A DNA stretch of 42,676 nt from Candidatus Thorarchaeota archaeon (GTDB lineage: Archaea > Asgardarchaeota > Thorarchaeia > Thorarchaeales > Thorarchaeaceae). Shown piece by piece: positions 92 to 41,100 of the stretch (position 1 is the stretch's first letter; every line of letters begins with the position of its first letter). The notes under the pieces were generated by a model. The model was not told the origin of the DNA. It saw only the letters and a list, made by a program, of their open reading frames with translations, and did not search any database. The position numbers and the translations under genes were made by a program. The stretch lies in NCBI GenBank assembly GCA_013388835.1, contig JACAEL010000022.1:1-42676 (forward strand), read 5' to 3'.

Positions 92-207
92 GCCGAGGTA
101 GCCAAGTTGGACCACGGCGCCGGTCTTGAGAACCGGTGTGCTCTGCACGCAGGAGTTCAAGGGCTGCGACACTACGTCGGGCCGAACACATCTCCTCCTC
201 GGCGCCA
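92..207 (+). tRNA. tRNA-Ser(UGA) with a T-loop intron
   Basis: Class II serine tRNA. Acceptor GCCGAGG (92-98) pairs with CCTCGGC (197-203), followed by G73 and an encoded CCA (205-207). The anticodon stem CCGGT/ACCGG encloses loop CTTGAGA, with anticodon TGA at 127-129. A long variable arm GTGC/GCAC (138-148) supports Ser. T-stem AGGAG (151-155) pairs with CTCCT (192-196), but the T-loop TTCAA..AT is interrupted by about 29 nt (161-189). The flanks can form a BHB fold: central helix GTTC/GAAC with 3-nt bulges AAG and ACA, which places the cuts between positions 58 and 59. Removal leaves 87 nt including CCA. The boundaries could shift by one base. A TATA-like CTTAAAAG lies at 35-42. Confidence 0.9.
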
Positions 208-331
208 CCAATGGCAGTACTCGTGGACGGCTGCCGCAGAGAGCGAATGAGGACATGGGACTCTCGCAGGTGCATTAGGGGAGGAACAAAAGAGCGGAAT
301 CCTTTTCGTTTGTATCTGTGCATCAGTATCC

Positions 332-1135
332 ATGCCATTTGTAGAGACCAATGGAGTGCGGACATACTACGAGCTCGAGGGAGCTGGTCCTCCGATTGTC
401 TTCATTCACGGGGCGGCATGTGACCGGGACATGTGGCGTCCACAGGTGGAGTACTTTGCAGACAAGTGCAGTGTGATCACATATGACCTGCGTGGACATG
501 GCAAGTCTCAGGGCTCGGACGGCAGATACAGCTGCAGACTCTTTGCGGACGACTTGAATGCACTGCTACAGAGTCTCGATGTCAGGGAACCAGTAATCTG
601 CGGCATCTCGTTGGGAGGTATGGTAGCTCAGGAATACACTGTGAGATATCAGCAGAATCTTCGTGGTCTAGTCCTTGCTGACACTGCAGTGTCAACCACA
701 CTGCGTTTCTCGGACAGAGTGCAGAAGGCATTGTTTCCGAAGAGGTTGGTCTTGTGGATGGTTAGGAACATGAGCAGGAAGAGGTATGCAGACTTCTCAT
801 TCCGGTTCTTCAAGATGGCCCCAAGTGTGCGTGAATACCTCGTAGAGAAGCAGCTTGCAATGAGTCAAGAAGAACTCCTGAAAGTGATTGAGGCGGCGTA
901 TGACTTTGAACTACTCGATTTGGCGTCTGTATCAGTGCCGACTCTGGTAATCATCGGGGAGAATGAACGCAAGTCGGTCTTTCCACACGCAGAGAAGATG
1001 CTCCAGCTGATATCAAACTCGAGAAAGGTGGTAATCCCAGGGGCAGGACATGCATCAAATCTGGAGAACCCGATGGGATTCAACCGGGCATTAGAGAAGT
1101 TCCTTTCTGAGCTTCCCAGTCCTAGAGCGACTTAG
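332..1135 (+). CDS. Alpha/beta-fold hydrolase
   Basis: 267-residue cytoplasmic hydrolase of the alpha/beta fold. The oxyanion-hole motif FIHG is at residues 24-27 and the nucleophile elbow GISLGG at 91-96 (Ser93). The acid is probably a Glu in GENE (210-213) and the base is His240 in GAGH. A Glu rather than Asp acid is slightly unusual. The length is normal for the family, whose members range over esterases, C-C hydrolases and haloperoxidases, so the substrate cannot be told. No signal peptide or membrane segment is visible. It converges on the Elp3 gene, and the two 3' ends overlap by 14 bp. Its stop codon is TAG. Confidence 0.88.
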   Translation: MPFVETNGVRTYYELEGAGPPIVFIHGAACDRDMWRPQVEYFADKCSVITYDLRGHGKSQGSDGRYSCRLFADDLNALLQSLDVREPVICGISLGGMVAQEYTVRYQQNLRGLVLADTAVSTTLRFSDRVQKALFPKRLVLWMVRNMSRKRYADFSFRFFKMAPSVREYLVEKQLAMSQEELLKVIEAAYDFELLDLASVSVPTLVIIGENERKSVFPHAEKMLQLISNSRKVVIPGAGHASNLENPMGFNRALEKFLSELPSPRAT

Positions 1136-2720
1136 CCATGTAGGGGCCCAAGTCCCTGAAACCCAGGCGCCGGTAGTACTCCTTCACACCCAGACCACTG
1201 TTAACAAGAATCGTGTCTGCTCCAAGCTCATCGCGCCCAATGCTCTCTGCAGCCTCTATGAGCCACTCACCCATTCCGAAGTGCTGCCACGCATCACTCC
1301 TTCTCTGACGCAGTTCAACAGCTGTCCCATATACCCTCAGTTCTCGGATAATCGCGCAAGGCCCAGCTGTCATCTCCCGTCTGTGCGATGCAGTGCTCGG
1401 GCGTCGGAGGCGCAGGAAACCAACTAGAACGTCATCTTCAGGGACTTCCAGAGACAGGAACAGTTCCTTGCCCCCAGAGGCGTCGTACTCCCTTCGGACC
1501 AAGACCACATCCGCCATGTTGACTCTCTTGCCAGTCCTGAGTTCGTAGTGTCCCACCTCCCGATATCGGATGGTACGGTCCCTGAGACCAAGCTGGTTCA
1601 TCCGCTTCTGGACAAGCTCGCGAAGGTTGCCACAGTCAAGTCCTGCCTCTATCTGATGAAGTGGGATGTCTCTCTGCATCCTCTGGATTCGGACATACTC
1701 GGGCATCTCGGCTATGGCAGTTGCCAAGAGACCTACAGTCTGGTCAGTATCATATGGCCGGTATTCCCCAGCCGTCCACCATTCATAGAGCTTTGTGTGC
1801 TTGACCACAATCGTAGGGTAGATCTTCAGCATATCGGGCCGGAAGGCCGGGTCTGAGAAGAGACGGCGAAAGTCGTTCAAGTCGGACTCGAATGTAGCCC
1901 CCGGGAGCCCCGGCATCATGTGGTACGCCACCTTTATGCCACTGTCACGGAGTAGCTGAGAGGCGCGGACAACGGAGTCAACGCCATGGCCTCTCGAAAC
2001 GCGGTGAAGAATTGAGTCAGAGAGAGTCTGGACACCAATCTCGACCCTTGTAGCGCCCATGTAGAGTAGCTCGTCAACGCTGCCAGGGGTCACCAGATCG
2101 GGTCGTGTCTCAAATGTTGTGCCAATGTTCCGGACAGGCGCTCTCTCATTCTTTCGCTTTGCCTCGTCCAGACTCCCACTCTCGGATTGATTCATCGCGT
2201 CAAGGCAACGCTTCACAAACTCTGCTCTATACTGGGCGTCCTTTGAGCACCAGTCGCCACCCATGACAATCAGTTCGGCCTTCTGGGTTGTGTGACCGGT
2301 GGCCCGGAGCTGGTCAAGCCGACTGTGCACCTGTCGAAACGGATCGAAGTCATTCTGAATCCCTCGCATGGTTGCAGGCTCATGGCCGGTGTAGCTCTGG
2401 GGAACACCGAGGTCTGGCCCACCGGGACAGTAAGCGCACTTGCCATGGGGACAGGCCTGCGGTCGAGTCATGACAGCAATCACTGCCACCCCGGAAGCAG
2501 TCCGGACCGGGCGTTTGCGTAGCAGTCTGCTCAGAAAGTCCACCTCCTCCGGTCGCGCATGTCCAAGTATGTCCGCATTAGATGGGATTGTGGGTAGATG
2601 ATACCTTGCGCAGACCCGGTTCTTCAGCCGGTTGATGTGATGCCTGTCGAGGGGTACCTCTGAACGCAGGATCTCTTCGATAATCTCTCTGCAGACGGAG
2701 GCGGATGTCGCTTCAGGCAT
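1122..2720 (-). CDS. elp3: Elp3-type tRNA uridine-34 carboxymethyltransferase
   Basis: 532-residue radical-SAM/acetyltransferase enzyme. Known role: Elp3 uses S-adenosylmethionine and acetyl-CoA to build the cm5 side chain on wobble uridine 34 of tRNA, and in archaea it acts without the other Elongator subunits. The iron-sulfur cysteines form C-x4-C-x2-C at 90, 95 and 98 (CPHGKCAYC). A TIM-barrel core follows, with motifs such as GVQTLSD and YHMMPGLPG. The C-terminal 140 residues are GNAT-like, ending in NSGLGVKEYYRRLGF. Length matches the family. Several tRNAs in this window (Ser UGA, Lys UUU, Arg UCG) have U34 and are plausible substrates by inference. Confidence 0.95.
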   Translation of the reverse strand: MPEATSASVCREIIEEILRSEVPLDRHHINRLKNRVCARYHLPTIPSNADILGHARPEEVDFLSRLLRKRPVRTASGVAVIAVMTRPQACPHGKCAYCPGGPDLGVPQSYTGHEPATMRGIQNDFDPFRQVHSRLDQLRATGHTTQKAELIVMGGDWCSKDAQYRAEFVKRCLDAMNQSESGSLDEAKRKNERAPVRNIGTTFETRPDLVTPGSVDELLYMGATRVEIGVQTLSDSILHRVSRGHGVDSVVRASQLLRDSGIKVAYHMMPGLPGATFESDLNDFRRLFSDPAFRPDMLKIYPTIVVKHTKLYEWWTAGEYRPYDTDQTVGLLATAIAEMPEYVRIQRMQRDIPLHQIEAGLDCGNLRELVQKRMNQLGLRDRTIRYREVGHYELRTGKRVNMADVVLVRREYDASGGKELFLSLEVPEDDVLVGFLRLRRPSTASHRREMTAGPCAIIRELRVYGTAVELRQRRSDAWQHFGMGEWLIEAAESIGRDELGADTILVNSGLGVKEYYRRLGFRDLGPYMAKSL

Positions 2721-2791
2721 TGGAGCCTGCTGAGTGGGATGTGCTCATTAATGCCACGATAGGGGGCAAAAAGATGGTGATGCTTGGATAG

Positions 2792-2800
2792 CTTTTTATT
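2792..2800 (+). promoter_or_regulatory. TATA-like box upstream of rps30e
   Basis: CTTTTTATT about 40-48 nt upstream of the eS30 start codon. This would place transcription initiation near 2822, leaving a short leader that carries an AGGGG ribosome-binding site (2827-2831). Confidence 0.5.
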
Positions 2801-2839
2801 GGCTTGGCAGAGCCATGAATATGAACAGGGGAACAAGAT

Positions 2840-3001
2840 ATGCCAGGTTCACACGGCTCACTCACAAAGGCGGGAAAGGTCCGAGAGTCCACGCCAAAGG
2901 TCACCGGGCGTGAGCGACATACTCCAATCCCGCGCGTGCGCAACAAGCGCAACTATGTCAAGAGGTTCATCCGCGGGCGTACCGTCGGTGTCAGAGCTTA
3001 G
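2840..3001 (+). CDS. rps30e: Small ribosomal subunit protein eS30
   Basis: A 53-residue basic protein starting [15 protein letters not shown] and continuing [21 protein letters not shown]. This matches the eS30 pattern of a GSLT-AGKV start, a TPK segment and an NRRNY-KRF-like end. eS30 belongs to the small subunit and lies near the decoding centre. AGGGG 9 nt upstream is a plausible ribosome-binding site. It is a stand-alone gene between the divergent elp3 and the convergent pyrK, and its stop overlaps the end of pyrK by 11 bp. eS30 is common in TACK and Asgard archaea and usually missing from Euryarchaeota, so it helps place the organism. Confidence 0.9.
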
Positions 3002-3833
3002 AGGAGAAGCTCCTTTTCACTCCTGTGGCATCCCTCTGGTAGTTTCCAAACTCAGTCAGCTCCATGAGGCGTGATTCATCAAATACAGGACCGTCCAAGC
3101 AGACCAAGTCACCAGTCGGGTCCATGGCACAGGTGCCACATAGGCCGCAGCCACACTTCATATGCCTTTCCAGAGATGCCTGAATGTGAATACCAAGTTC
3201 ACGTGTGAGACGATACAGGTTGATCATCATCATCTCAGGACCACAGGTATATACCCTGTCGAAACTCGACTCATTCAGAATCTCCGCTGCCAGTTGTGTC
3301 GCGAGCCCGCGGTATCCTGCGGACCCGTCATCTGTAGCAGTCCTGACAGTCAGTCTAGGGGTCTTGATGGACCTCAGCTCGGTTTCAAACAGCAACTCAC
3401 TACTCGTTCTAGCGCCTACGACCACAGTGGTCTCAGCCCCCAGCTGGACCAGACTGTGAATGAGCGGCCGAAGAGGCGCCATTCCAATGCCGCCACCTAC
3501 AACCAATGCTCTGTCCCGGAAGACTCGGAAACCATTCCCAAACGGGCCACGGAGTCCCAGACGGTCGCCTTCTGACATCGATGCGAGAGCCTGAGTGGCA
3601 GGTCCCACAGGCAATACCGAGATGCCGGTCTCAGAGTCCTCCCAATAGGATATGCTCATTGGAATCTCATCTATGCCCGGCGTCCAGACCATCAGGAATT
3701 GACCGGGTTGGAATGGTTCAGCATGGTCCGACTCAAGATACAGTGTACGCACACGCTTGTTTTCCTGTCTCACGCGCCTGATTCTTACAGACCTTGGACG
3801 ACCCATCCTGTGCTCTATAGTCATGACAATCAA
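2991..3833 (-). CDS. pyrK: Dihydroorotate dehydrogenase electron-transfer subunit (PyrK)
   Basis: 280-residue ferredoxin-reductase-type subunit. It carries FAD and a [2Fe-2S] cluster and passes electrons from dihydroorotate oxidation in PyrD to NAD+, in de novo pyrimidine synthesis. An N-terminal FAD-binding barrel (about 15-105) is followed by a nucleotide-binding domain with [11 protein letters not shown] near 111-121. The cluster ligands are C227, C232, C235 and C245 (C-x4-C-x2-C-x9-C). The start overlaps the end of pyrD by 4 bp (ATGA), the usual coupling for a heterotetrameric class 1B enzyme. The 3' end overlaps convergent rps30e. Confidence 0.93.
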
Positions 3834-4705
3834 CTCCGCGCAGCAAGACCTATGATTTCAGAAAGCTCAGAGAAGCCCGCTTCTCGCAGGTAGGCCTCCA
3901 CACCCTCCCGAACTCTCTTGAACACGTCCATTCCCCAGAGGACACCCGTACCAATCTGGATGGCACTGGCGCCCGCCAAGTGCATCTCTACTGCATCTTC
4001 CCATGTAGACACTCCGCCCACACCAATCACAGGTATGCTCAGCGCTTGATAGAGGTCGTACACACAACGTACGGCAATTGGGAAGATTGGAGGACCGGAC
4101 AGCCCACCAAAACGATTGCCCAACACAGGTCGTCGCTGGTGGATGTCAATGCGCATTGCGCGTACGGTGTTGATTGCTACCACTGCATCCGCACCTGCTC
4201 TCTCCGCGGAGGCGCCCACCGACACGATGTCTGACGCATTCGGCGTCAGTTTTGCGAAGACCGGACAACTCACTAGGTCCTTCACGGTCTTTACGTAGCG
4301 ATACGTCAGCTGGGGGTCATGCGATATCTGACTTATCTCTGCATGAGGACAGGACAGATTCAGCTCTATTGCGCTAGGCCGGACTTCGGCAGCCTTTGAT
4401 GCGACCTTTGCAATCTCGTCAAGAGAGTTACCGAATATGCTGAGGACAACAGGGACCCCGATCGTTGCGAGGTCTGATAGCTCGTCCACAAAAGCATCGA
4501 TACCGGGGTTGGTCAGACCGACTGCGTTCAGGAGACCTCCATGTGAGACTGTCAGTACCGGACCGTCATGTCCCTTGCGCGGGGTCAGACCAATGGACTT
4601 CGTCACAACTGCGTCGGCCCCGTTTCGCGCGACTCTTCTGAGCAGTGATGCAGTCATCCCAAGCACGCCCGATGCAAGCCAGTAACCGGAGATCCTCATG
4701 CGCAC
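3830..4705 (-). CDS. pyrD: Dihydroorotate dehydrogenase catalytic subunit (class 1B)
   Basis: 291-residue FMN TIM-barrel enzyme that oxidises dihydroorotate to orotate. It contains AVGLTNPGID (61-70) and ELNLSCPH (114-121) with Cys119 as the likely catalytic base of class 1 enzymes; class 2 has Ser. FMN-phosphate loops GVGGVSTWEDA and GASAIQIGTG are near the C-terminus. Adjacent pyrK marks it as class 1B. The start ATG is preceded by a region shared with the divergent nop5 promoter. Length fits the family. Confidence 0.94.
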   Translation of the reverse strand: MRMRISGYWLASGVLGMTASLLRRVARNGADAVVTKSIGLTPRKGHDGPVLTVSHGGLLNAVGLTNPGIDAFVDELSDLATIGVPVVLSIFGNSLDEIAKVASKAAEVRPSAIELNLSCPHAEISQISHDPQLTYRYVKTVKDLVSCPVFAKLTPNASDIVSVGASAERAGADAVVAINTVRAMRIDIHQRRPVLGNRFGGLSGPPIFPIAVRCVYDLYQALSIPVIGVGGVSTWEDAVEMHLAGASAIQIGTGVLWGMDVFKRVREGVEAYLREAGFSELSEIIGLAARS

Positions 4706-4811
4706 TCGCCCCTGTCAGATACCGGACGGGTGTAATAAGCACAAGGGCGGCCGAAGAGACAGACATTTATCAGGCACCTAGACTCCAGTGAACTATTGGA
4801 GCTCCCGAGTC

Positions 4812-6742: not shown

Positions 6743-6750
6743 AGCGCTCC

Positions 6751-7185: not shown

Positions 7186-7271
7186 AGTCCGTTTCTTGCT
7201 TCGGTCTTCGACTCAGCTGCCAATTAGCAAATCTGAAAAGGCAGGTTCACGGAGTCTTTCTGATAGTGAGT

Positions 7272-8240: not shown

Positions 8241-8244
8241 TTAC

Positions 8245-8988: not shown

Positions 8989-9229
8989 TCCTTAGAGGCA
9001 CGCAAGTCTCGGACGGCCTGATTCTCAGTACAAGTACATCTGGCCATATAAGTTCCACTTACAACGCGTTCGAGTCGATCCGGCACTCAGGCAGTCTTTT
9101 GCAGACTCTTGTGTCGTCGACATCTCTCTCCATGAATTACACTCGATGGTCTTCGGACACCACAGACACGAACTCTAGGCACAATTCCTCTCAACGGCAA
9201 TAGGCTTCTAGGTATGTCCTGAGAGAATG

Positions 9230-9334
9230 TGGGGGCGCCGAGATTTGAACTCGGAACCTGCGAGTGGCTCATTCTATGACCCCGTTGTCATAAGATCTGG
9301 AGCCCGACGCCATACCGGATTAGGCCACGCCCCC
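9230..9334 (-). tRNA. tRNA-Trp(CCA) with an intron at 37/38
   Basis: Read on the minus strand, acceptor GGGGGCG pairs with CGCCCCC, with discriminator A and no encoded CCA. D-stem GCC/GGC, T-stem CCGAG/CTCGG and loop TTCAAAT are all intact. Anticodon loop CTCCAGA gives anticodon CCA (9298-9300). A 31-nt insert (9266-9296) after G37 separates it from A38 and the 3' anticodon strand CTCGC. The insert contains an ATGAC/GTCAT hairpin. BHB pairing CTC/GAG is imperfect and pair 27-43 is a U-C mismatch, so the exact cuts are uncertain. Removal leaves 74 nt. Confidence 0.82.
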
Positions 9335-9996: not shown

Positions 9997-10011
9997 CAGA
10001 ATGACAGGATA

Positions 10012-13474: not shown

Positions 13475-13481
13475 ATTCACC

Positions 13482-18781: not shown

Positions 18782-21700
18782 CTAAATCATCTCCTTCAAT
18801 CTCAGCCTACAGGCCAAGCCTAATGACATCATTTCCTGGATGAGTAGCTTGAAAGCATAGGACACAACAACACTGCTTATTCTAGCATTGGTACCGCAGA
18901 TGGGACAGTAGTAGATATCCTTGTTACGATCGTAGACGCCAATCAGCCCACACTCCTCACACACAAGCATGTTGCTTTTGTCAGACTCGTCGAGAAGCCT
19001 GCCTTTCAGGAGTATGGCCGCCCCATGACCAATCAGGACATCTCGCTCCATCTCTCCGAACCTGAGACCGCCCTCCCTTGCTCGACCCTCGGTTGGCTGT
19101 CTTGTGAGAATCTGGACTGGTCCTCTGGCGCGGGCGTGCATCTTGTCAGCGACCATGTGGTGTAGCCGCTGATAGTAGATGACACCGATGAATATGTCTG
19201 TGGTGAGTTTCTGGCCTGTGACACCCGAGTACATGACCTCTCGACCTGTGTGCTGGAATCCATGGTCGTGAAGAGTCTTGAAGAGCTCTTCTTCCGTGAC
19301 ACCACAGAAAGGAGTGGCATCCTGTTGCTTGCCATCCGCACAGCCAGCCTTGCCAGCAATCATCTCCAAGATCTGCCCGATTGTCATTCGGCTCGGAATG
19401 GCATGTGGGTTGATTATCAGGTCCGGTACAACACCGTCCTCAGTGAAGGGAACATCCTGCTGTGGCACAATGTAACCCACAACGCCCTTCTGGCCGTGAC
19501 GAGACGCAAACTTGTCGCCCAGCTCAGGAATGCGCAGGTCTCGGACCTTGACCTTCACAAGGCGGTTTCCGTCGATGGTCTCTGTGAGAATGACACTGTC
19601 GACCACACCAGCCTCTCCATGTCGTACTGCAACTGAGGTCTCGCGTCGGTTCGGAGAAGTGATTTCGAACTCCGAGTACTCCTCAAGAAACCTAGGTGGG
19701 GAGGTTCTGCCAATCAGCACATCGCCGCCTTGTACTTCCACCTCCGTCTCGACTATGCCGTCTTCACCAAGGTTGCGGTAGGCTTCAGATGCGCGATATC
19801 CTCGAACACTGCGGTCAGGCACCTCGAACTTGTCCTCCTGTCCGCCAGGGTACTTTCGCTCTTCGCTCTCGTAGACTCTTGCAAATGTGCTTCGGCCCAG
19901 CCCCCGTTCGATGGAGGCCTTGTTCATGATTAGAGCATCTTCTATGTTGTAACCCTCAAAGGACAGTATCGCAACTACGAAGTTCTGACCTGCGGGACGC
20001 TCCTCATAGCCGATGGAGTTCATGGGGCGTGTCTTCACCATCGGTACTTGGGGGTAGTGGAAGAAGTGCGACCTCGTGTCGGCCCTGTATCTGAAGTTCG
20101 ATGCAGGAACACCAACGGACTGCTTCGCCATTCCAGCCATGTACACATTACGTGGGGACTGGTTACGTTCAGGGAACGGTATGAGCGCTGCGGAAATCCC
20201 AAGTATCGTAGACGGAACAATCTCAAGATGAGTCGTCTTCGAAGAGATATCCTCGGGGGTCATAGCAATGAGAGTGTTCTCTTCCTCTTCCGCATCCAAG
20301 AACTCGACAATCCCATTCCGTAGAAGATCCTTGAATCCCCACTCCCCATCGGTCACCATGCGCAGGTGCTCTTCAGTGAGGCGACTGCGTCCGTTCTCCA
20401 CGATTATCAATGGGCGCCGGACCCGTCCCGCATCACAGTTGACTTGGACTTCCCGAGTGTCCTCGTAGTACGCAATATTGACCTCGTTGTCTATCTCTCC
20501 AGCGCGACGCTTCTGCCGAATGACCTTGACAAGCACTTGCGGAGCGGCATGGATGCCAACTAGACGTCCGTTGAGAAACACATCTGCTCCCTTCGTCCCC
20601 CGTTTGCCCTTCAGACGCTCGATGTGTTCCACATCGGCCTTGAGCAGAGCGCGCTCTACCGATTCCTCATCTGTACCGACAGAGATGTAGGCCATCATGG
20701 CGATGTTCTTGACAAGTCCACAGTTGGGTCCCTCAGGGGTCTCATTGGGGCAGATCTTTCCCCAGTGAGTCGCGTGGAGGTCCCGCGCCTCAAAGTGTGG
20801 CTGAGACCTAGACAGAGGCGACACTACGCGTCGTAGGTGTGATAAGGATGAGATGTAGTTGGTTCGGTCAAGGAGCTGGGATACTCCAGCCTTTCCTCCG
20901 ACCCAGTTGCCGGTGGCAAGAGCATGCTTGAGTCTCTGGGTTATCACATCCGCGCGTACTGCAGTCCTTATGTTCGGTTTTCGACCTCGAACCGCGGTCC
21001 GTTCAAGCTGGTACTTGATGTCACGTGTCAAGGAATAGAGTGCCACTCTGAATAGTGACATCAAGAGGTCACCAGACAGCTTCAACCGCTTGTTCGAATA
21101 ATGGTCCTTATCATCAGCTTGGCGTTTGCCAAGGACCAGTTCGAGCAGCCTTTCGACCATCTGCCCAAGATAGTAGGCCTTCTGAAGTCTGTGCTCAGGC
21201 TCAGTGCCTATGTGAGGCAAGAGATATCGGTCAAGCACCTTCTCGGCACGGGACAGCCGGTATTCCTTCGTCTGGCCGACCGCGACTCGCTTTCCAATGA
21301 AGTCCAGTGCGTTCTCGCGCGTAGACCCCGTTGCCTCCTCGCTTGCCCCAGCGTTTATTGGCGCGGACTGTTCAATAGTCACTATGAGCTCGTTCCGAAC
21401 GTCTTCGTCATCGGATATTATATCGACAATCTCGCGGTCAGACTCTACACCCAGAGCCTTGAGGAGGATTGCTAGGGGAATCTTGCCGGGAACTGATGGA
21501 AATGAGACACGCAGCTCTCCTGTGCGCTTTCTCTCGATTGTGACGGGTGCTCGGAAACCACGGGATGTGGAGAAGACCTTTGCAATGTGCGTATAACTTG
21601 AGCTCTTGCTCGCTTCTTCGATGAGTATCCTGTTTGGCGCCAAGTCCTCCTGGGTGACCAATACTCGCTCAGACCCGTTGATAATGAAGTAGCCACCAGG

Positions 21701-22162
21701 GTCCTTTGGGTCCTCGCCATGACGGATGAGTTCCTCATCACTGAGACCATGCAGAAGACACTTCTCGCTTCGAAGCATGATGGGGAGGTCGCCAATGTAG
21801 ATACGAAGGGTTTCCATTCGCGTGGTGACTGTGCCCTCCTTTCTTACAGGAGTCATGTTGAGGTAGAGCTTGCTTGCATAGGTCAGGTTGCGTATACGAG
21901 CCTCATTTGGATAGAGAGGGTGTTCACTGCCATCTGCCTCTCGAACTGACGGCGCCTCGACTTCAATCTCACCGAGCTCCACGTAGTAGCCCTCGACTTT
22001 GGGAGCGAGGCGGCCCACGCTCGTGACTACCTCTTGCAATTCATGGTCAATGAACCGATTGAATGAGTCAAGATGCTGTCCTACTAGACCACGATCCGCG
22101 AAGTATGCCTCAATTACGGGCCAGTACTTCTGCCGTTCTTCTATACCCAAACCTGTCACCAC
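18782..22162 (-). CDS. rpoB: RNA polymerase subunit B (Rpo2), unsplit
   Basis: 1126 residues from a GTG at 22162; this start precedes the conserved YWPVIEAYFADRGLVGQHLDSFN. The open frame runs further upstream, but that part overlaps the tRNA-Lys gene and cannot be the N-terminus. Blocks seen include GGYFIINGSERVLV, the fork and rifampicin-like region THWGKICPNETPEGPNCGLV, MNSIGYEERPAGQNFVVA, GDKFASRHGQKGVVG and a C-terminal zinc ribbon (CEECGLIGVYDRNKDIYYCPICG). Many euryarchaea split this gene into B' and B''; here it is whole. No rpoH precedes it. The stop is TAG, 2 bp before the rpoA1 start. Confidence 0.95.
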   Translation of the reverse strand: MVTGLGIEERQKYWPVIEAYFADRGLVGQHLDSFNRFIDHELQEVVTSVGRLAPKVEGYYVELGEIEVEAPSVREADGSEHPLYPNEARIRNLTYASKLYLNMTPVRKEGTVTTRMETLRIYIGDLPIMLRSEKCLLHGLSDEELIRHGEDPKDPGGYFIINGSERVLVTQEDLAPNRILIEEASKSSSYTHIAKVFSTSRGFRAPVTIERKRTGELRVSFPSVPGKIPLAILLKALGVESDREIVDIISDDEDVRNELIVTIEQSAPINAGASEEATGSTRENALDFIGKRVAVGQTKEYRLSRAEKVLDRYLLPHIGTEPEHRLQKAYYLGQMVERLLELVLGKRQADDKDHYSNKRLKLSGDLLMSLFRVALYSLTRDIKYQLERTAVRGRKPNIRTAVRADVITQRLKHALATGNWVGGKAGVSQLLDRTNYISSLSHLRRVVSPLSRSQPHFEARDLHATHWGKICPNETPEGPNCGLVKNIAMMAYISVGTDEESVERALLKADVEHIERLKGKRGTKGADVFLNGRLVGIHAAPQVLVKVIRQKRRAGEIDNEVNIAYYEDTREVQVNCDAGRVRRPLIIVENGRSRLTEEHLRMVTDGEWGFKDLLRNGIVEFLDAEEEENTLIAMTPEDISSKTTHLEIVPSTILGISAALIPFPERNQSPRNVYMAGMAKQSVGVPASNFRYRADTRSHFFHYPQVPMVKTRPMNSIGYEERPAGQNFVVAILSFEGYNIEDALIMNKASIERGLGRSTFARVYESEERKYPGGQEDKFEVPDRSVRGYRASEAYRNLGEDGIVETEVEVQGGDVLIGRTSPPRFLEEYSEFEITSPNRRETSVAVRHGEAGVVDSVILTETIDGNRLVKVKVRDLRIPELGDKFASRHGQKGVVGYIVPQQDVPFTEDGVVPDLIINPHAIPSRMTIGQILEMIAGKAGCADGKQQDATPFCGVTEEELFKTLHDHGFQHTGREVMYSGVTGQKLTTDIFIGVIYYQRLHHMVADKMHARARGPVQILTRQPTEGRAREGGLRFGEMERDVLIGHGAAILLKGRLLDESDKSNMLVCEECGLIGVYDRNKDIYYCPICGTNARISSVVVSYAFKLLIQEMMSLGLACRLRLKEMI

Positions 22163-22309
22163 ATCCTGATGAGGGACGGGGAAACTACTGCGGGTCTGTT
22201 GCTTCCCAATGCATGAACCCAGAGAAGTCCGAGTTCGCTCACTCGCCGCAATAGCCGCCCCGTTGCTGTCACCCGGGCAGTAGAGCATACCCACGCTTGT
22301 CACGGACCA

Positions 22310-22480
22310 TGGCGGGCTCGGCGGGATTTGCTCCGCGCCGAGGGACTCTCGACACGCTTGAACCCGCGGCCCCTGCCCGACCAAGACATCGTTTCTTGGC
22401 CTTCAGGTTAAAAGCCTCAGCCGACGAGACAGAAGGACTGTTTCGAAGACTGCTGCGCTGCCTGCCTGCGCCACGAGCCC
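22310..22480 (-). tRNA. tRNA-Lys(UUU) with three introns
   Basis: Minus strand: acceptor GGGCTCG pairs with CGAGCCC, then G73 and encoded CCA. D-stem GCGC/GCGC. Anticodon loop CTTTTAA with TTT at 22410-22412. T-stem GCGGG/CCCGC. The T-loop is broken by 30 nt (22328-22357) with central helix GTTC/GAGC, bulges AAG and AAA, and a 9-bp inner stem. A 34-nt insert (22416-22449) splits the 5' anticodon strand, with central helix CAGC/GCTG and bulges AGT and AGG. A third insert of about 30 nt (22371-22400, ambiguous because GGCC repeats at both ends) lies in the variable loop, with CCAAGA/TCTTGG inside. Removal leaves 77 nt with anticodon stem GCAGG/CCTGA (27-43 mismatched). The third intron is the least certain. 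Confidence 0.75.
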
Positions 22481-22947: not shown

Positions 22948-23089
22948 GCCCCTGTGGTATAGCTCGGCTAGTATTCAAGACTGTCAACATCTGGTCCTGA
23001 GTACGAGCCTGATGGCAGATCTCTTGAGACCCGGGTTCAAAGCGAAGCGCGATTGTTCGAGCCTCCTGAAACTCCCGGCGGGGGCGCCA
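22948..23089 (+). tRNA. tRNA-Asp(GUC) with two introns
   Basis: Acceptor GCCCCTG (22948-22954) pairs with CGGGGGC (23079-23085), then G73 and encoded CCA (23087-23089). Anticodon stem CAAGA/TCTTG; loop CTGTCAC is restored after removing a 34-nt intron at the canonical 37/38 site (22987-23020). Its BHB is textbook: central CTGT/GCAG, bulges CAA and ATC, inner CATC/GATG. Anticodon GTC at 22983-22985. T-stem CCGGG/CCCGG is separated by a second, 31-nt intron (23042-23072) at 59/60, with central helix TTCA/TGAA, bulges AAG and ACT, and the T-stem as outer helix. Removal of both leaves 77 nt. Both BHB folds are convincing. Confidence 0.93.
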
Positions 23090-27858: not shown

Positions 27859-28009
27859 TGGTCGGGACGGGGGGAGTCTCCGTTAATGCGAGATACGCAC
27901 ACTTTTGAGCCCCCAACAGGCGGATTGCGGCTGCGCTAGCATCTACAGTCCGCTGCTCTGCCAGGTTTCACAGAGCTCGGAAGTCGAGGCTCTATTGAGC
28001 TACGTCCCG
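27859..28009 (-). tRNA. tRNA-Tyr(GUA) with three introns
   Basis: Minus strand: acceptor CGGGACG pairs with CGTCCCG (the C1-G72 pair is an archaeal tyrosine identity element), then A73 and encoded CCA. Anticodon stem GCGGA/TCCGC, loop CTGTAGA, anticodon GTA at 27944-27946. A 17-nt insert (27926-27942) sits at 37/38. A 29-nt insert (about 27965-27993) in the D-loop forms AGAGC/GCTCT with TCG/CGA inside. A 28-nt insert (27876-27903) in the T-loop contains a GTGCG/CGCAT hairpin, between T-stem GGGGG and CCCCC. Position 54 is C instead of T. Removal leaves 77 nt. BHB pairing is imperfect at all three, so each boundary may move by a base or two. Confidence 0.82.
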
Positions 28010-31415: not shown

Positions 31416-31648
31416 CTCACAGTCTCCGGTGGTTCGTAACAGCTGCTCTGAAGCAAAAGGGACTCTCGTGTGTTAGTCCGCAATTGCTGCTCGGATCTTC
31501 AATGCACTTGAGTGTGTCGTGTCGTACGGAGCTCAAACGCGGAATGTGCACACACTGAGACTGTGGTCGGTTCAACAACGCTCAACGGACTTCAACAGGT
31601 GTCAAAGTTGGTCCATAGGAGTGGCAACACGCCCATGACAGACTCTGT

Positions 31649-33094: not shown

Positions 33095-33104
33095 AGGTTT
33101 TCGC

Positions 33105-35737: not shown

Positions 35738-35816
35738 GGGTGTGCTGCATCACTGATATGTTTGATTGTGCATTTCGGACGTTTCGGTTAAGAATGTTGG
35801 GAATCTGTACTCCGAA

Positions 35817-36818
35817 CTAGACGGGGAGTCCGTTTTGGCGTACTTCTTCGGATAAGTTCAGAATTCGTGTGTCACCTCGCCATCTATAGGTCTCGACCAA
35901 CCAGTCTGCGATGCAGTCTATGTATAGCCTCTCAATCTCTGGCGTCCGGGTCTGACCTATCGCCTTGAGGTAACGGTCAAGAAGCCGCCAAGACAGGGAT
36001 CTCTTTCTGTGGTCAAAGATGGGGTCGGTGTCAAGGAGGCTTGCTCCAATGCCACTTATGTCGGCCAGCCAGTTTCCGGGACGAGCCTCTTCAAAGTCAA
36101 GACCGATGACTACTCCATCGCTGACCACGAAGTTGCGAAGCTGAGGGTCGCCTTTCAACAGTCCTGTAACGCGGTGAAAGCGCACATACCAGTCCGCCAA
36201 CTGGTCAATCAGATGGGGGTCGAACGTGGAGTTGACTACATCCACAAGAACATCGCCGGGTACGTATTCCATCAGGATGACATTGTCCTTGGACTCTATC
36301 ACATGCGGCACCTCTATCCCGGAAGAACTACAGACGGCGAGGGCCCATTCTTCCACGGTGAACCGTTCATCTCCGGGTGGACGGAGTCGGACACACGAGT
36401 CGTGTCGCTCCCAGAAGACGGCACTGGGGTCACTCCTTGAGGTCTCAAGAAGTGCCGAGCCGACCTCGGGCGTTCTGTGATCACACAGAAGCATATGGAC
36501 ACCACCCTGCGTATGTTCAAGACTGTCCAACTTCGCGGCAGCTGCAGCCAACCCCGGTTCCACGAACAGCTTGGCAACAAAGAACCTCGTCGCGGAGTCC
36601 ACGCCGGACTCGGAAACATCAAGTCTAAGGACAACGTTCTTCTTGCTCTTCAGTCTCTGGCTCCGCACCAGTCTGGCGTGTGGACCAACTTCCGTTCTCA
36701 ACATGTCCCAGAGCGTGACCAGTCGCATCGGGTCAAGTCGTTTGCCGTCTAGTCCTGTGAACACCATGCGGAGACCGGCTGGGAGGCTCATTTTCATCAA
36801 CTCGACGAGACTGCACAT
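35817..36818 (-). CDS. APH/protein-kinase-like phosphotransferase
   Basis: 333 residues with the kinase-fold core. A possible ATP lysine is in FFVAKLF (Lys83), the hinge is LMEYVPG (182-188), and the catalytic loop is LLKGDPQLRNF with Asp224 and Asn229. The metal-binding DFE (Asp241) sits in GLDFEEARPGNW. The layout is closer to aminoglycoside/choline or Kdo-type kinases than to RIO kinases. Substrate unknown. It may share the divergent promoter with the DUF6485 gene. Confidence 0.75.
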   Translation of the reverse strand: MCSLVELMKMSLPAGLRMVFTGLDGKRLDPMRLVTLWDMLRTEVGPHARLVRSQRLKSKKNVVLRLDVSESGVDSATRFFVAKLFVEPGLAAAAAKLDSLEHTQGGVHMLLCDHRTPEVGSALLETSRSDPSAVFWERHDSCVRLRPPGDERFTVEEWALAVCSSSGIEVPHVIESKDNVILMEYVPGDVLVDVVNSTFDPHLIDQLADWYVRFHRVTGLLKGDPQLRNFVVSDGVVIGLDFEEARPGNWLADISGIGASLLDTDPIFDHRKRSLSWRLLDRYLKAIGQTRTPEIERLYIDCIADWLVETYRWRGDTRILNLSEEVRQNGLPV

Positions 36819-36833
36819 CTAGGTTACCAATCA

Positions 36834-36847
36834 GGCTTTAAGAAATT
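36834..36847. promoter_or_regulatory. Divergent TATA-like region
   Basis: GGCTTTAAGAAATT in the 53-bp gap between the kinase and DUF6485 genes. It can be read as a TATA box in either direction, giving almost leaderless transcripts on both sides. Confidence 0.4.
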
Positions 36848-36871
36848 ACATCGTTACACCAACGGAGAACC

Positions 36872-37090
36872 ATGTCTGTCAGAGTTTGTAACCTCGAACG
36901 CAATAAGAGCCGCTGTAGATGCACGTATCCAGAGTGCTCACGTCAGGGGATCTGCTGTGAATGCCTTCACTATCACTGGCAATACCGAGAACTCCCCGGT
37001 TGCCTCTTTCCCCCGGATGTAGAGAAGGCATACGACAGGTCTCTTGAGAACTTCATTAGAGTCTGGAGCAAGGAACTCAAGAGGAGTTAG
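36872..37090 (+). CDS. DUF6485-like cysteine-rich small protein
   Basis: 72 residues with seven cysteines, in the pattern CNLERNKSRCRCTYPECSRQG followed by CCECLHYHWQYRELPGCLFP and a helical end AYDRSLENFIRVWSKEL. This matches small archaeal and bacterial proteins of the DUF6485 type, which probably bind zinc or an iron-sulfur cluster. The function of the family is not known to me. Stands alone before tRNA-Arg(UCG). Confidence 0.75.
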   Translation: MSVRVCNLERNKSRCRCTYPECSRQGICCECLHYHWQYRELPGCLFPPDVEKAYDRSLENFIRVWSKELKRS

Positions 37091-37151
37091 GATTTGGCAT
37101 CTACTGCTTCAGGAAGAGTCGCTCATTTCGGAGTGTATTCGACAGAAAGGA

Positions 37152-37159
37152 CTTAAAGG
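37152..37159 (+). promoter_or_regulatory. TATA box of tRNA-Arg(UCG)
   Basis: CTTAAAGG 24-31 nt upstream of the tRNA 5' end, the canonical archaeal spacing. Confidence 0.6.
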
Positions 37160-37182
37160 TCAACCAGTGTCAAGGATGATGT

Positions 37183-37291
37183 GGGCGCGTAGTCTAGTCA
37201 GGGTTCAGAGCAGTTTGCTGCTCTGAAGTACAGATAGGGCGCCAGCCTTCGGAGTTGGATGTCCCAGGTTCAAATCCTGGCGCGCCCGCCA
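37183..37291 (+). tRNA. tRNA-Arg(UCG) with a D-loop intron
   Basis: Acceptor GGGCGCG pairs with CGCGCCC, then G73 and encoded CCA (37289-37291). Anticodon stem CCAGC/GTTGG, loop CTTCGGA, anticodon TCG at 37249-37251. T-stem CCAGG/CCTGG with loop TTCAAAT is intact. The D-loop is interrupted by 31 nt (37203-37233) after G18-G19. The insert is almost entirely a perfect 10-bp hairpin (TTCAGAGCAG/CTGCTCTGAA, loop TTTG). Bulges GGG and AGA flank it, but the central helix has only two good pairs, so the BHB is relaxed. Removal leaves 78 nt. Confidence 0.9.
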
Positions 37292-37341
37292 CTTCCTTCT
37301 GGCACGCCCTCGGCACATGGTGTCGTCCAGCAACCAGCATA

Positions 37342-38403
37342 CTAGAACACATGTTCTGTGGCCGGTTGCTTACCGAAGAGCTTGGCCATGCGGTGCCTGT
37401 TGGGTTTTCGAATCACACCACGGTCAGTGATGATAGCGGTAATCAGCTCAGGAGGAGTGATGTCGAACGCAGGATTGTACACCTTTGCAGTAGGGACTGT
37501 GATGTATTGACCGTTGATGATTCGGACCTCATCTGGGGAACGTTCTTCAATCTGGACATCCCTAGAATCGGTCACCATGTCAACTGTGGACGTGGGAGCA
37601 GCGACGTAGAATGGTATCTGATGGTACTTCGCACATATGGCCATCGTATAGGTACCAATCTTGTTAGTGACATGTCCGGTCTTGAGTATCCGGTCGGCGC
37701 CGACAACACAACAGCTCACTTGTCCCTCTCTGAAGACAGTACCAATCATACCATCGGTAATGAGTGTAACATCGATTCCATCCTCCATCAGCTCAAACAC
37801 TGTGAGACGGGCACCCTGTTGCCTCGGGCGAGTTTCGGCAGCAAAAACATGTATGTCACCATTGTACCGCTCGTGTGCCACTCGAATTACAGCACCAACA
37901 GTACCAATGTTCACAGTGGCCAGAGAGCCGGCGTTGCAAATGGTCTGTATTGTGGAACCCGGACCTATGAGGGGAAGCGCATACTCACCTATGGAACGAC
38001 ACATCCGGACATCTTCTTCAGCAATCTCCTTTGCCTCTTCGACAAGACGCCGGACTATCGCAGATACTGTTCCTTCAGACTTCATCGCGACGGAGAGCAT
38101 ACGAGATGTGGCCCATGTGAGATTCACAGCAGTAGGTCGCACATTTATGGTCTTGGCGGCCTGCTCCAGAAAGCCTATGAGTTCGTCCTTGGTCTTGGCG
38201 CGACTCTCGATTGCAGCGAGTGCCATAGCCATGCCTGCAGCGGCACCAATGGCTGGAGCCCCTCTGATCTCCATCGTACTAATCGCCTGTGCAACTCGTG
38301 CATGGCTTTGCGTCACGATGTGGTCTGTTTGAAGAGGCAGCTTGGTCTGATCAACAAACCGGACTGCGTCCTTGTCGTCCAACCACTCTATTGTCCTAAA
38401 CAC
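37342..38403 (-). CDS. mtnA: MtnA-like methylthioribose-1-phosphate isomerase
   Basis: 353-residue isomerase of the eIF2B-like fold. Family motifs are FRTIEWLDD at the start, MEIRGAPAIG (44-53), CNAGSLATVNIGT, AAETRPRQQGARLTVFEL, GADRILKTGHVTNKIGTY and VYNPAFDITPPELI. MtnA converts methylthioribose-1-P to methylthioribulose-1-P in methionine salvage. In archaea, close relatives act on ribose-1,5-bisphosphate or other aldose-1-phosphates, so the substrate should be taken as probable. Stop TAG. Its start overlaps the end of the protease gene by 16 bp. Confidence 0.9.
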   Translation of the reverse strand: MFRTIEWLDDKDAVRFVDQTKLPLQTDHIVTQSHARVAQAISTMEIRGAPAIGAAAGMAMALAAIESRAKTKDELIGFLEQAAKTINVRPTAVNLTWATSRMLSVAMKSEGTVSAIVRRLVEEAKEIAEEDVRMCRSIGEYALPLIGPGSTIQTICNAGSLATVNIGTVGAVIRVAHERYNGDIHVFAAETRPRQQGARLTVFELMEDGIDVTLITDGMIGTVFREGQVSCCVVGADRILKTGHVTNKIGTYTMAICAKYHQIPFYVAAPTSTVDMVTDSRDVQIEERSPDEVRIINGQYITVPTAKVYNPAFDITPPELITAIITDRGVIRKPNRHRMAKLFGKQPATEHVF

Positions 38404-38942
38404 GTCTTGTCCTCCAGATGATGACTCAGGATGCGTTCTAGAAGCTTAATAAGATTCTCAGCGGCCACTTGTACAGGGGGAGTCAGGCCCTCACCGAACG
38501 CAATGCTCTGAGGCTGAATCCCCAGAAGCACGGTCTTGGCGCCCGTTTCCTGCTCAAGGTACATCATCAATAGCGAGAGAGGCATACCATGGGTACTTAT
38601 CGCCATTCCTCCAATCCGTTCTCGCGTAATCAGCTCTACGTGACCCGGGTGCTTCCTCATATCTGCGGCATCCACCAGAATCACTCGTTCGGCTCCAAAG
38701 TCAGTAAGGGAACTGGTGAATGCCTCTGGTACTGACCCGACGTTTTTCACAAGTGCACACGGGTTGTCAATCCCAAGATGTTCAACAATGAACAGTCCAA
38801 CACCATCATCAGTTCGCAAGTCGTTTCCTATGCCTAGAACCGCAACTCTCGTGGCTTCGTCTAGGAAAGCAGACAATGTGGCTTCTATCGAGTCTGGGCA
38901 CATATCTCTCGCATCACAGGGATACGTCGAAGGGTTTTTCAC
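38388..38942 (-). CDS. Hydrogenase maturation protease (HycI/HyaD family)
   Basis: 184-residue aspartic-type endopeptidase that trims the C-terminus of [NiFe]-hydrogenase large subunits after nickel insertion. The conserved VLGIGNDLRTDDGVG (35-49) supplies one metal-binding acidic residue, VILVDAADMRKHPG a second, and ISTHGMPLSLL the histidine. Translation might start at Met14 instead of Met1. No hydrogenase subunit is in the window. Coupled to mtnA by a 16-bp overlap. Confidence 0.88.
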   Translation of the reverse strand: MKNPSTYPCDARDMCPDSIEATLSAFLDEATRVAVLGIGNDLRTDDGVGLFIVEHLGIDNPCALVKNVGSVPEAFTSSLTDFGAERVILVDAADMRKHPGHVELITRERIGGMAISTHGMPLSLLMMYLEQETGAKTVLLGIQPQSIAFGEGLTPPVQVAAENLIKLLERILSHHLEDKTCLGQ

Positions 38943-38979
38943 AATACCGTTCAGACCGCATTGCGTTGGCGATGAGAGA

Positions 38980-39606
38980 TTGTTTGATGAAGATGGCGAA
39001 AGCCCTGAGCAGCCGGACCTAGAAGTACCGGAGGAAGTCGAAGGACAGGAGGAGGAGATAGAGCCTGCTGAAGCAATCTTCGCAGACGGGAAAGGTTACG
39101 TTGGAGCTGATGACGCCGACAGGATATCACAGCAGGGGTTCTATGGTACAAGGACTGACGACGGCAGGCTAGAACTCGAGCCTGTTGAGATTCTTCACCT
39201 CATCGAGAGGAAACGTTTGATTGTAAGGCTACAGAGTGGTGAGCCTTGTTCTGCAAGCACGATTGTCAGTAAACTGCTCAGGGAACAACCGGACTTGTGG
39301 ACAAGGTATCTCGTCTTCAGAGACCTGAGAAGCAGAGGATACGCGGTGCGTCAGGGCTTTGGTGGGGGAATTGGGTTCAGAGTCTATGCTAGGGGAGAGA
39401 AGCCGGGCTCGGCCTCTGCCAACCAACTTGTCTATGTTCTCAAGGAAGGTGATGTAGTGTCCCTACAGGAGCTTGCTACAATTACAGAAACCGCCTCCGC
39501 AGCAAGAAAGAAGCTTGTCTTCGCCCTCGTCGACCAGAACGGTGAAGTCAACTTCTACAGAGTCGCTCAAGTTGTACTCCACAACAGGCAGGGTGATACG
39601 GTTTGA
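38980..39606 (+). CDS. endA: tRNA-splicing endonuclease homologue lacking the catalytic His
   Basis: About 208 residues from a TTG at 38980; the open frame runs on upstream across the protease gene, so the start is uncertain. An acidic stretch of about 35 residues precedes the N-terminal domain. The C-terminal nuclease domain is clear: RYLVFRDLRSRGYAVRQGF, then FRVYARG with the catalytic Tyr, and ARKKLVFALVDQNGEV with the catalytic Lys. The usual His, in an EHxxxLV context after the Tyr, is replaced by GSASANQLV with Ser at that position. Known enzymes need Tyr, His and Lys, so this may be a structural or altered subunit. The TGA overlaps the TTG of the ATPase gene. Confidence 0.85.
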   Translation: MFDEDGESPEQPDLEVPEEVEGQEEEIEPAEAIFADGKGYVGADDADRISQQGFYGTRTDDGRLELEPVEILHLIERKRLIVRLQSGEPCSASTIVSKLLREQPDLWTRYLVFRDLRSRGYAVRQGFGGGIGFRVYARGEKPGSASANQLVYVLKEGDVVSLQELATITETASAARKKLVFALVDQNGEVNFYRVAQVVLHNRQGDTV

Positions 39607-40892
39607 CACACAGATGGAACAATAGCGATGACATTGAAGCATATGAAGAGATCAGGAGGCTGGAGTCATTCTTTGACCCGCACACTATGAGTGTTCATCT
39701 GGTTGAGAACAATCCCCCCAGGGCAAAGAGGGGTGCTCCCGGCGACTGGTCACTTGTAGAACTCTCCAGTCAGCCGCTAAACCGCGAGGAACTGGAGGAA
39801 ATGGCGGAAGCAATCGTTGTCGCAGCCCGCAATGACCGAGGCTCGTTTGTGGAGATTGAGGAGGTGGGTGCATTGGTGGTTCAGTTGAGGAACTACAGGA
39901 TAGCAATCGCGCAACCCCCGTTTGCGGACAAGTTTGAGATTTCTGCAATTCGTCCGATTACCAAGCTCTCCATAGCCGATTATGCCCTGAGTCCGAAGTT
40001 GATGAAACGCCTTGAGAGCAGAGCAGAAGGAATACTAGTATCAGGTTCACCGGGCTCAGGCAAGAGCACTTTTGCGGCCGCTCTTGCAGAGTTCTATAGT
40101 GGACGCGGTAATATTGTAAAGACACTGGAACAACCTCGGGACCTTCAGGTGACAGAGGACATTGTCCAGTACGCACCCATTGATGGCAGCATGGAGAAGG
40201 CGGCAGACATACTTCTGCTTGTGCGTCCGGATTATGTGGTCTATGATGAGCTCAGGAAGGACTCGGACTTTCAAGCATATGCAGACCTGCGTTCTGCAGG
40301 AGTGGGTATGGTGGGCGTTGTTCATGCGGGGTCCTCGATTGATGCGCTCCAAAGGCTCATTCATGGGGGAAGAGTGGAACTGGGTCAGGTGCCTAGCACA
40401 GTCGACACGGTGGTTCATATCGAGGCAGGTAGAGTTGCCAAGGTGGTATCATTGTCGCTCAAAGTGAGGCTACCCACTGGGATGAGTAGTTCACAGAGAG
40501 ACTTGGCCAGACCTGTCATTGAGGTGAGAGACTTCGAGCGCGGATTACTGGAATTTGAGATGTTCACGTTTGGCGGCGAGAAAGTGGTGATGCCTGTACA
40601 CGGGACCGATGTGACAGCAGCAGGAAGAGGCGGGAGGGACCATGAGGCGGGAGCAGCTGCGGGTGAGAGTGTTCAGGTGTCAGTAAGCTACTCGTCCAAG
40701 AGAGTGACACTGTTCGTGGGCAGGAGGTATGCAAGACAACGACTGGATGTCTTCGCAGACGACGTCTATTTGCTTACCACTGTTGTGGGCCGCAATGGGG
40801 AGTCCACGATTCGAACAAAGACCCGTCAAGGCAGCGCTCTGGTTGATGCAATGGAAGAAGGTGCAAAGATTACCGCTCGTGTGGCGGACTGA
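39603..40892 (+). CDS. PilT-family ATPase with KH-like end, lacking the PIN domain (COG1855-like)
   Basis: 429 residues. The COG1855 block starts at once: FDPHTMSVHL, then AKRGAPGDWSLVEL and NYRIAIAQPPFADKFEISAIRP. Walker A GSPGSGKST is near 148-156, followed by LLVRPDYVVYDELRKDSDF and GVGMVGVVHA. The C-terminal 80 residues resemble a single-stranded nucleic-acid-binding KH/TRAM-like module. In most archaeal relatives a PIN nuclease domain of about 140 residues precedes this block; here the protein starts about 25 residues before it, at a TTG overlapping the endA stop (TTGA). A role in RNA processing with the endonuclease is inferred from the coupling. Confidence 0.88.
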   Translation: MTHRWNNSDDIEAYEEIRRLESFFDPHTMSVHLVENNPPRAKRGAPGDWSLVELSSQPLNREELEEMAEAIVVAARNDRGSFVEIEEVGALVVQLRNYRIAIAQPPFADKFEISAIRPITKLSIADYALSPKLMKRLESRAEGILVSGSPGSGKSTFAAALAEFYSGRGNIVKTLEQPRDLQVTEDIVQYAPIDGSMEKAADILLLVRPDYVVYDELRKDSDFQAYADLRSAGVGMVGVVHAGSSIDALQRLIHGGRVELGQVPSTVDTVVHIEAGRVAKVVSLSLKVRLPTGMSSSQRDLARPVIEVRDFERGLLEFEMFTFGGEKVVMPVHGTDVTAAGRGGRDHEAGAAAGESVQVSVSYSSKRVTLFVGRRYARQRLDVFADDVYLLTTVVGRNGESTIRTKTRQGSALVDAMEEGAKITARVAD

Positions 40893-40940
40893 ATCGGCGA
40901 ATATCAGTTGCAGGTTGTGAGTCGTCGGTCCAAACGAGTG

Positions 40941-41100
40941 TGGCGGGCCCGACCAGAGACTCACCCGACGTGGATCTCACGTGATACGGGGTTTGAACTG
41001 GTGGCAACCAACTGACTCCATTGCACTTGGCATTAGGAGGCTGGTGCCCTATGAACACCCTGCAGAGCAAGTCTGATTGACCATGCTAGGCGACGGGCCC
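40941..41100 (-). tRNA. tRNA-Arg(CCU) with three introns
   Basis: Minus strand: acceptor GGGCCCG pairs with CGGGCCC, then G73 and encoded CCA. Anticodon stem CCAGC/GTTGG, loop CTCCTAA, anticodon CCT at 41035-41037. Intron 1 (41053-41080, 28 nt) in the D-loop after G19: central GCAT/GTGT, bulges GGT and TCA. Intron 2 (41014-41033, 20 nt) at 37/38: central CTCC/GGAG, bulges TAA and TCA. Intron 3 (40958-40991, 34 nt) at 59/60 of the T-loop: central TTCA/TGAG, bulges AAC and TCT, outer helix the T-stem ACCAG/CTGGT, inner CCCG/CGGG plus ACGTG/CACGT. Removal of all three leaves 78 nt. All three show a BHB, so this is the strongest multi-intron case. Confidence 0.93.

Follow-up and report, generated by a model that had tools for sequence, protein, structure and literature searches.

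Heavy, mainly non-canonical intron load in the tRNA genes of a Thorarchaeia genome with a putative heteromeric splicing endonuclease

The window (the whole stretch of DNA analysed, 42,676 nucleotides), contig JACAEL010000022.1 (C22) of the Candidatus Thorarchaeota archaeon assembly GCA_013388835.1, contains seven tRNA genes, for Ser, Trp, Lys, Asp, Tyr, Arg-UCG and Arg-CCU, which are interrupted by 1, 1, 3, 2, 3, 1 and 3 introns, respectively (Table 1). Ten of these 14 introns are outside the canonical position 37/38: five are in the T-loop, three in the D-loop and two at further sites in tRNA-Lys, while four are at 37/38. After removal of the introns the mature lengths are 87, 74, 77, 77, 75, 78 and 78 nt, in the same order. 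The window also encodes a subunit of the tRNA-splicing endonuclease, and RpoB, whose matches and tree position place the host in the Thorarchaeia. In the best-matching segment, RpoB reached 86-90% against a group of genomes, all titled Candidatus Thorarchaeota except four (two titled 'Lokiarchaeota' and two 'archaeon'), which belong to the same fully supported clade. The host genome consists of 3.01 Mb in 125 contigs and is 97.6% complete with 3.1% contamination.

The seven genes, with the 14 introns and the site classes that a preliminary description of this DNA had assigned to them, were recovered with an intron-aware cloverleaf finder purpose-written for this analysis. With a cut-off score of 22 it reported the seven genes (scores 33.8 to 43.7) and nothing else in the window, and in six block-shuffled windows, searched on both strands, it gave 3 matches scoring at least 20, the best of them 21.1. 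Two simple scans for acceptor and T-stems had both missed the Trp gene, in which the CCA is not encoded, the first also the Tyr gene, and had returned 1 and 10 spurious extras; the finder was therefore written. ARAGORN with default settings called none of the seven genes in the window as it stands and all seven, with the expected anticodons, once the introns had been removed. Random deletions of the same sizes led to some tRNA call, the anticodon of which was not checked, in 85 of 420 cases. When introns were allowed, ARAGORN called the Trp gene alone, with Ser or Trp as its identity, and its loosest setting produced 78 genes. The Rfam search of the window gave one gene (Trp) over the cut-off and part of Arg-UCG below it, and in the Rfam search of the genome the tRNA-Lys of the window was just under the cut-off (28.9 versus 29 bits). 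The earlier claims that the intron load is heavy and mostly non-canonical, that each removal restores a tRNA of normal length, and that standard annotation misses most of these genes, were borne out.

The joined exons are close to intact tRNAs of relatives (labels of the form L0xx denote the loci or genomes of relatives compared with the window). Compared with the intact tRNAs of L051, 74 of 77 positions were identical in tRNA-Lys, two of the four exons of which are only 14 nt long, 73 of 78 in tRNA-Asp and 67 of 77 in tRNA-Tyr; an intronless tRNA-Arg(UCG) is present in L040. The tRNA-Lys was re-parsed by hand against the intact tRNA-Lys genes adjoining rpoB in L030, L051, L059 and L082. The interrupted genes look like working tRNA genes, judged by their sequence. 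The exact splice points could shift by a few bases in several introns, most of all those in the D-loop; the D-loop junction of tRNA-Arg(CCU), for example, has four central pairs of the bulge-helix-bulge (BHB) motif if the intron is taken one base shorter. For the longest rpoB reading frame (18782-22384, minus strand) the listed start is a TTG at 22384, which lies within the tRNA-Lys gene; a start called automatically would thus make the two overlap.

Table 1 Interrupted tRNA genes, their introns and the endonuclease subunit gene in the window
Feature	Position	Strand	Remarks
pre-tRNA-Ser(UGA)	92..207	+	T-loop intron 161-189 (29 nt), strict BHB
pre-tRNA-Trp(CCA)	9230..9334	-	37/38 intron 9266-9296 (31 nt), 3/4 central BHB pairs; 3' CCA not encoded
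pre-tRNA-Lys(UUU)	22310..22480	-	four exons; finder and hand parse
tRNA-Lys intron, 5' anticodon stem	22416-22449	-	34 nt, weak BHB
tRNA-Lys intron, variable region	22372-22401	-	30 nt, three-pair BHB
tRNA-Lys intron, T-loop	22328-22357	-	30 nt, strict BHB
pre-tRNA-Asp(GUC)	22948..23089	+	two introns
tRNA-Asp intron, 37/38	22987-23020	+	34 nt, strict BHB
tRNA-Asp intron, T-loop	23042-23072	+	31 nt, relaxed BHB
pre-tRNA-Tyr(GUA)	27859..28009	-	three introns
tRNA-Tyr intron, D-loop	27964-27994	-	31 nt, weak BHB
tRNA-Tyr intron, 37/38	27926-27942	-	17 nt, three-pair BHB
tRNA-Tyr intron, T-loop	27876-27903	-	28 nt, three-pair BHB
pre-tRNA-Arg(UCG)	37183..37291	+	D-loop intron 37203-37233 (31 nt), weak BHB
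tRNA-splicing endonuclease structural (beta) subunit	38716..39606	+	PF01974 E 2.1e-21; PDB 5x89 E 1.4e-26; 1a79 E 6.4e-18
pre-tRNA-Arg(CCU)	40941..41100	-	three introns
tRNA-Arg(CCU) intron, D-loop	41053-41080	-	28 nt, weak BHB
tRNA-Arg(CCU) intron, 37/38	41014-41033	-	20 nt, relaxed BHB
tRNA-Arg(CCU) intron, T-loop	40958-40991	-	34 nt, strict BHB

The heavy and mainly non-canonical load extends to the rest of the host genome. The DNA decoded comprised the window, the loci matched by Rfam and tRNA-bearing stretches amounting to 334.6 kb; outside the window, the finder was run only on the loci with Rfam hits and on about 11% of the genome. With E values up to 10 allowed, RF00005 had 29 matches, of which 20 exceeded the cut-off. 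Altogether 38 distinct tRNA genes were decoded, of which 29 are interrupted, with 42 introns (1.1 per gene), 32 of them non-canonical. The introns are located in the T-arm (14), the D-arm (10), at 37/38 (10), in the variable region or at its border (6) and in the 5' anticodon stem (2); this count includes a manual division of Lys and Asn, and the first Thr-CGU intron could belong to either the variable region or the T-stem. Only the intron-aware scan of the tRNA-bearing stretches recovered the genes for Arg-UCU (three introns) and initiator Met (one intron). The nine uninterrupted tRNAs are Val-CAC, one CAU tRNA, Phe, His, Sec, Gly-UCC, Ala-UGC, Glu-UUC and Gln-UUG. None was seen in the decoded DNA for Thr-GGU/UGU, Pro-UGG/CGG, Ala-GGC, Cys-GCA, Ser-GGA, Leu-UAA or Lys-CUU, the inventory being incomplete. 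The complete relative L051 (CP070761.1, titled chromosome) has 35 decoded tRNA genes, 14 of them interrupted, with 15 introns, 10 at 37/38. The number of 37/38 introns is thus equal in the two genomes and the excess in the host is non-canonical (32 versus 5), a contrast that is perhaps overstated, as L051 was decoded at Rfam matches only and interrupted genes may be missed. All five decoded Arg tRNAs of the host (CCG, GCG, TCG, CCT and TCT) have a D-loop intron directly after the GG pair; in L051 Arg CCG and GCG are intronless and Arg TCT has one intron, at 37/38.

The interrupted genes might alternatively be decayed pseudogenes, with intact tRNAs supplied from elsewhere in the genome. Insertions that stayed in the T-arm and the anticodon stem would inactivate a gene, and one broken 3' end of a tRNA-Leu does exist elsewhere in the host genome. 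However, the exons retain pairing and near-identity to intact orthologues, the insertions are near-uniform in length and have more BHB motifs than shuffles, and 29 of 38 tRNA genes are affected, beyond what a living cell could lose. Intact copies of the window isoacceptors, which the preliminary description had named as evidence to the contrary, were not seen in the Rfam-visible loci or the scanned 11% of the length of this 97.6% complete genome, the nine uninterrupted tRNAs being other isoacceptors. Decay is thus a very improbable explanation.

The junctions were examined for BHB motifs in 41 of the 42 host introns (the initiator tRNA-Met intron was left out), junctions being allowed to slide three bases and shuffled introns serving as the control. 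Strict hBHBh' motifs were found in 6 introns and relaxed motifs in 12, compared with 0.2 and 1.9 in the shuffles, so that four central pairs with a flanking helix were present in 18 introns versus 2.1 expected. Fifteen of the 41 introns surpassed their own shuffles at p < 0.05. Among the 14 junctions of the window, four have strict and two relaxed motifs, four have three of the four central pairs and four are weak. The BHB at the junctions is thus demonstrated for the introns as a set rather than one by one. Least convincing are those in the D-loop, one reason being that this loop varies in length.

The lengths of the introns are uniform, 84 of the 103 distinct introns collected being 29-34 nt long (a few of the Leu ones include the variable-arm exon), and their sequences within the host are mostly unrelated. 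Five pairs of introns from different tRNAs had similarity scores of at least 20, compared with 0.8 expected; the best pair mostly reflects the shared Leu variable-arm exon, and the next is a 13-nt identity between the Tyr D-loop and Asn T-loop introns (score 26; the highest score in 30 shuffles was 25). At best there is a faint sign that introns were copied and spread within the host genome.

The introns may have been kept for a role of their own, as guide or circular RNAs or by shielding tRNA att sites from integrases, rather than as tolerated passengers. Fourteen of the 42 introns are located in the T-arm, one of the regions of tRNA genes often used by integrases. Heimdallarchaeia have been reported to contain elements that integrate at tRNA genes (PMC8813620, available excerpt), and the uniform lengths could also point to a function. 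Uniform length may, however, merely reflect a hairpin that fits the BHB, the sequences are mostly unrelated to one another, and intron presence varies between close relatives. A candidate apical-loop motif, GANTC, was rejected, since it occurred in 26 introns compared with a shuffle mean of 21.7 and a maximum of 33. A role of their own is accordingly unlikely. We would give similarly little credence to a more elaborate proposal, in which Thorarchaeia would be amid an active exchange of intron modules, each about 30 nt long: after excision by EndA and circularisation by RtcB, introns would re-enter tRNAs through reversal of the reaction and become fixed through recombination, copies of spliced tRNAs would erase others, and T- and D-arm introns would be retained by destroying integrase att sites.

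The worn tRNA-Leu 3' end and tRNA-Leu(GAG) share their orientation, the former lying 4.2 kb downstream of the latter with several open reading frames (ORFs) in between (locus L177, 10215-10252 and 14440-14590, both minus strand). It was considered as an integration remnant, but the repeat continues beyond the tRNA, so it looks like a duplication.

Intron presence differs considerably between Thorarchaeia genomes (window included in all counts). The tRNA-Lys is intronless in 4 of 27 genomes and has one to three introns in 23, at 37/38, in the variable region and in the T-arm; the intron in the 5' anticodon stem is found in the window only. The tRNA-Asp is intronless in 4 of 24 genomes and the tRNA-Tyr in 3 of 9. 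L043, L048, L052 and L064, with none of the three tRNAs at these loci, were left out of the counts, and the tRNA-Lys of L047, in which the aligner gave a single 54-nt insertion, was manually given one intron at 37/38 and one in the T-stem. Intron states, binned by hand, were placed on a quick RpoB tree (35 rows; 32 inner branches, 13 starred and 10 open); the fewest changes needed were 13 (Lys), 16 (Asp) and 8 (Tyr), at least 37 altogether, counts that tree errors would inflate and the lumping of neighbouring sites would lower. A 16-nt 37/38 intron of tRNA-Lys is identical in L041, L042 and L044 and absent from L082, with all exon bases identical; the flanks of L082 are nearly identical to those of L041 and L042 and less alike upstream to those of L044. 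Similarly, the tRNA-Tyr of L082 has a 30-nt T-loop intron that is absent from L042, the 37/38 intron being identical in both; in this pair two exon bases differ and the sequences upstream are not related. Exact presence or absence of this kind is expected of introns that can be removed. The introns look as though they have been gained and lost often between lineages, the direction of each gain or loss being inferred.

The same comparison bears on whether the interruptions could be an assembly or binning artefact of a single metagenome-assembled genome, for which the draft state of the assembly, with its 125 contigs, might speak. The same genes are interrupted in other Thorarchaeia assemblies (tRNA-Lys in 23 of 27, tRNA-Asp in 20 of 24 and tRNA-Tyr in 6 of 9) and the identical intron recurs in L041, L042 and L044, so that this explanation is already contradicted and its chance is negligible. 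Beside rpoB in other Asgard archaea (L055-L058, L060, L061, L063, L068 and L069, titled Jord-, Sigyn-, Frey-, Odin- and Hermodarchaeota) the finder reported several tRNA genes with two or three introns and others with one or none.

The host genome contains two PF01974 proteins, one encoded on contig C68 and one in the window. The 196-amino-acid C68 protein, the putative catalytic alpha subunit, has its best match in the A. pernix endonuclease (3p1z, E 3.4e-44), with which it aligns over almost its whole length; a Lys is aligned to Lys44 of the Crenarchaea-specific loop and the His is also aligned. The Tyr and Lys of the catalytic triad, placed by motif, are presumably present. The window protein is predicted to be the structural beta subunit, with a Ser aligned to the His of 1a79 that we take to be the catalytic one. 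The alpha subunit thus resembles the A. pernix enzyme including the loop, and the beta subunit resembles its counterpart in being without the catalytic His. Unlike the A. pernix enzyme, the host enzyme is from an Asgard archaeon, and its beta subunit has an acidic N-terminal part and is nearer to 5x89 and 1a79 than to the crenarchaeal non-catalytic chain 2zyz_A (E 0.001). The true start of the beta ORF is uncertain, since its 5' part overlaps a divergent ORF (38388-38942, minus strand); the conserved domain spans 39295-39555. When Asgard sequences were read by eye, the loop Lys and the His were present in 18 of 18 alpha subunits (L160, in which the loop is unclear, was left out) and the His in 0 of 11 beta subunits (beta copies without a locus were left out). 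Two PF01974 copies over the cut-off were found in 18 of 20 genomes, the host's own included, and one in two genomes that are 80% and 77% complete. A single RtcB ligase was found in the host.

The enzyme is presumably an alpha2beta2 tetramer with broad cleavage. Relaxed-BHB introns are efficiently removed only by (alpha-beta)2 and epsilon2 enzymes, and the loop Lys is required for broad specificity, according to the available excerpt of PMC6379350. The relatives searched (L051 not among them) seem to have one and the same enzyme type, while Thorarchaeia differ in intron load; the enzyme would accordingly allow introns but not account for how many there are. The beta gene sits among the intron-bearing tRNA genes and is followed by an ORF at 39603 with a GSGKST P-loop; that the enzyme subunit is encoded among its own substrates may be chance placement. 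The preliminary description had overlooked this subunit gene. A 15-base unit (AGGACCACCGCCGGG) is repeated about 11 times up to the end of the window (42507-42676), where the array is cut off, within a reading frame of VVLPA repeats.

We consider it highly probable (roughly 0.88) that these are functional Thorarchaeia tRNA genes with BHB introns that turn over between lineages. Their transcription would yield precursors containing one to three introns, each about 30 nt long, which would fold together with the exons into strict or relaxed BHB motifs. The endonuclease of C68 alpha and window-encoded beta subunits would cut both bulges and the single RtcB would join the exons. The crenarchaeal-type loop Lys of alpha would confer broad specificity and make introns in the D-, T- and variable arms tolerable, so that introns could then be gained and lost often. 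Several observations weigh against this interpretation: 23 of the 41 introns are without four central pairs plus flanking helix, the 11 three-pair introns are no excess over the shuffles (10.6), and 12 are weak, often those in the D-loop. Furthermore, the finder misread tRNA-Lys (anticodon UCG, two introns) and Asn, both of which were parsed by hand, and a disguised second copy of a gene is possible given the completeness and contamination of the genome and the partial scan.

A heavy non-canonical tRNA intron load has already been published for Thermoproteales and two other Asgard groups. As in the host, the multi-intron tRNAs of Thermoproteales have up to three introns per gene, many outside 37/38, and have been linked to an (alpha-beta)2 endonuclease, the type proposed here; intron spread between tRNAs has been proposed as a way of gain (Sugahara 2008, Fujishima 2010, via excerpts of PMC4033280 and PMC8450103). 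In contrast, the host is an Asgard archaeon, the introns of its different tRNAs are mostly unrelated and copy-and-spread is only weakly seen. Pyrobaculum calidifontis has 71 introns in 46 tRNA genes, versus 42 in 38 decoded genes of the host, and the number of introns per gene is on average 0.84 in Thermoproteales and 0.21 in archaea overall (excerpt of PMC8450103). Atabeyarchaeia and Freyarchaeia, Asgard archaea like the host but of other classes, have 92-95% of their tRNA genes interrupted, often at non-canonical sites and more than half with several introns, amounting to 228 introns in three genomes (PMC11291895, Nat Commun 2024, excerpt). That excerpt contains neither a comparison of turnover between orthologues nor empty sites, endonuclease types or Thorarchaeia tRNA introns. 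No paper on the tRNA introns of Thorarchaeia was found in the open-licence PMC literature, preprints not being covered. Unusual here are how densely the introns are packed (14 in seven genes within 41 kb), their turnover among close relatives and the enzyme subunit among the substrates.

The extreme tRNA-intron state is thus extended to Thorarchaeia and tied to an endonuclease with a 'Crenarchaea-specific' loop. Such genomes seem poorer in tRNAs than they are, as Rfam recognised one of the seven window genes, and Arg-UCU and initiator Met needed the intron-aware scan. The presence of the loop in all 18 Asgard alpha subunits read by eye bears on the origin of the eukaryotic tRNA-splicing enzyme, and close relatives with differing intron sets and precise empty sites make the gain and loss of archaeal tRNA introns directly testable.

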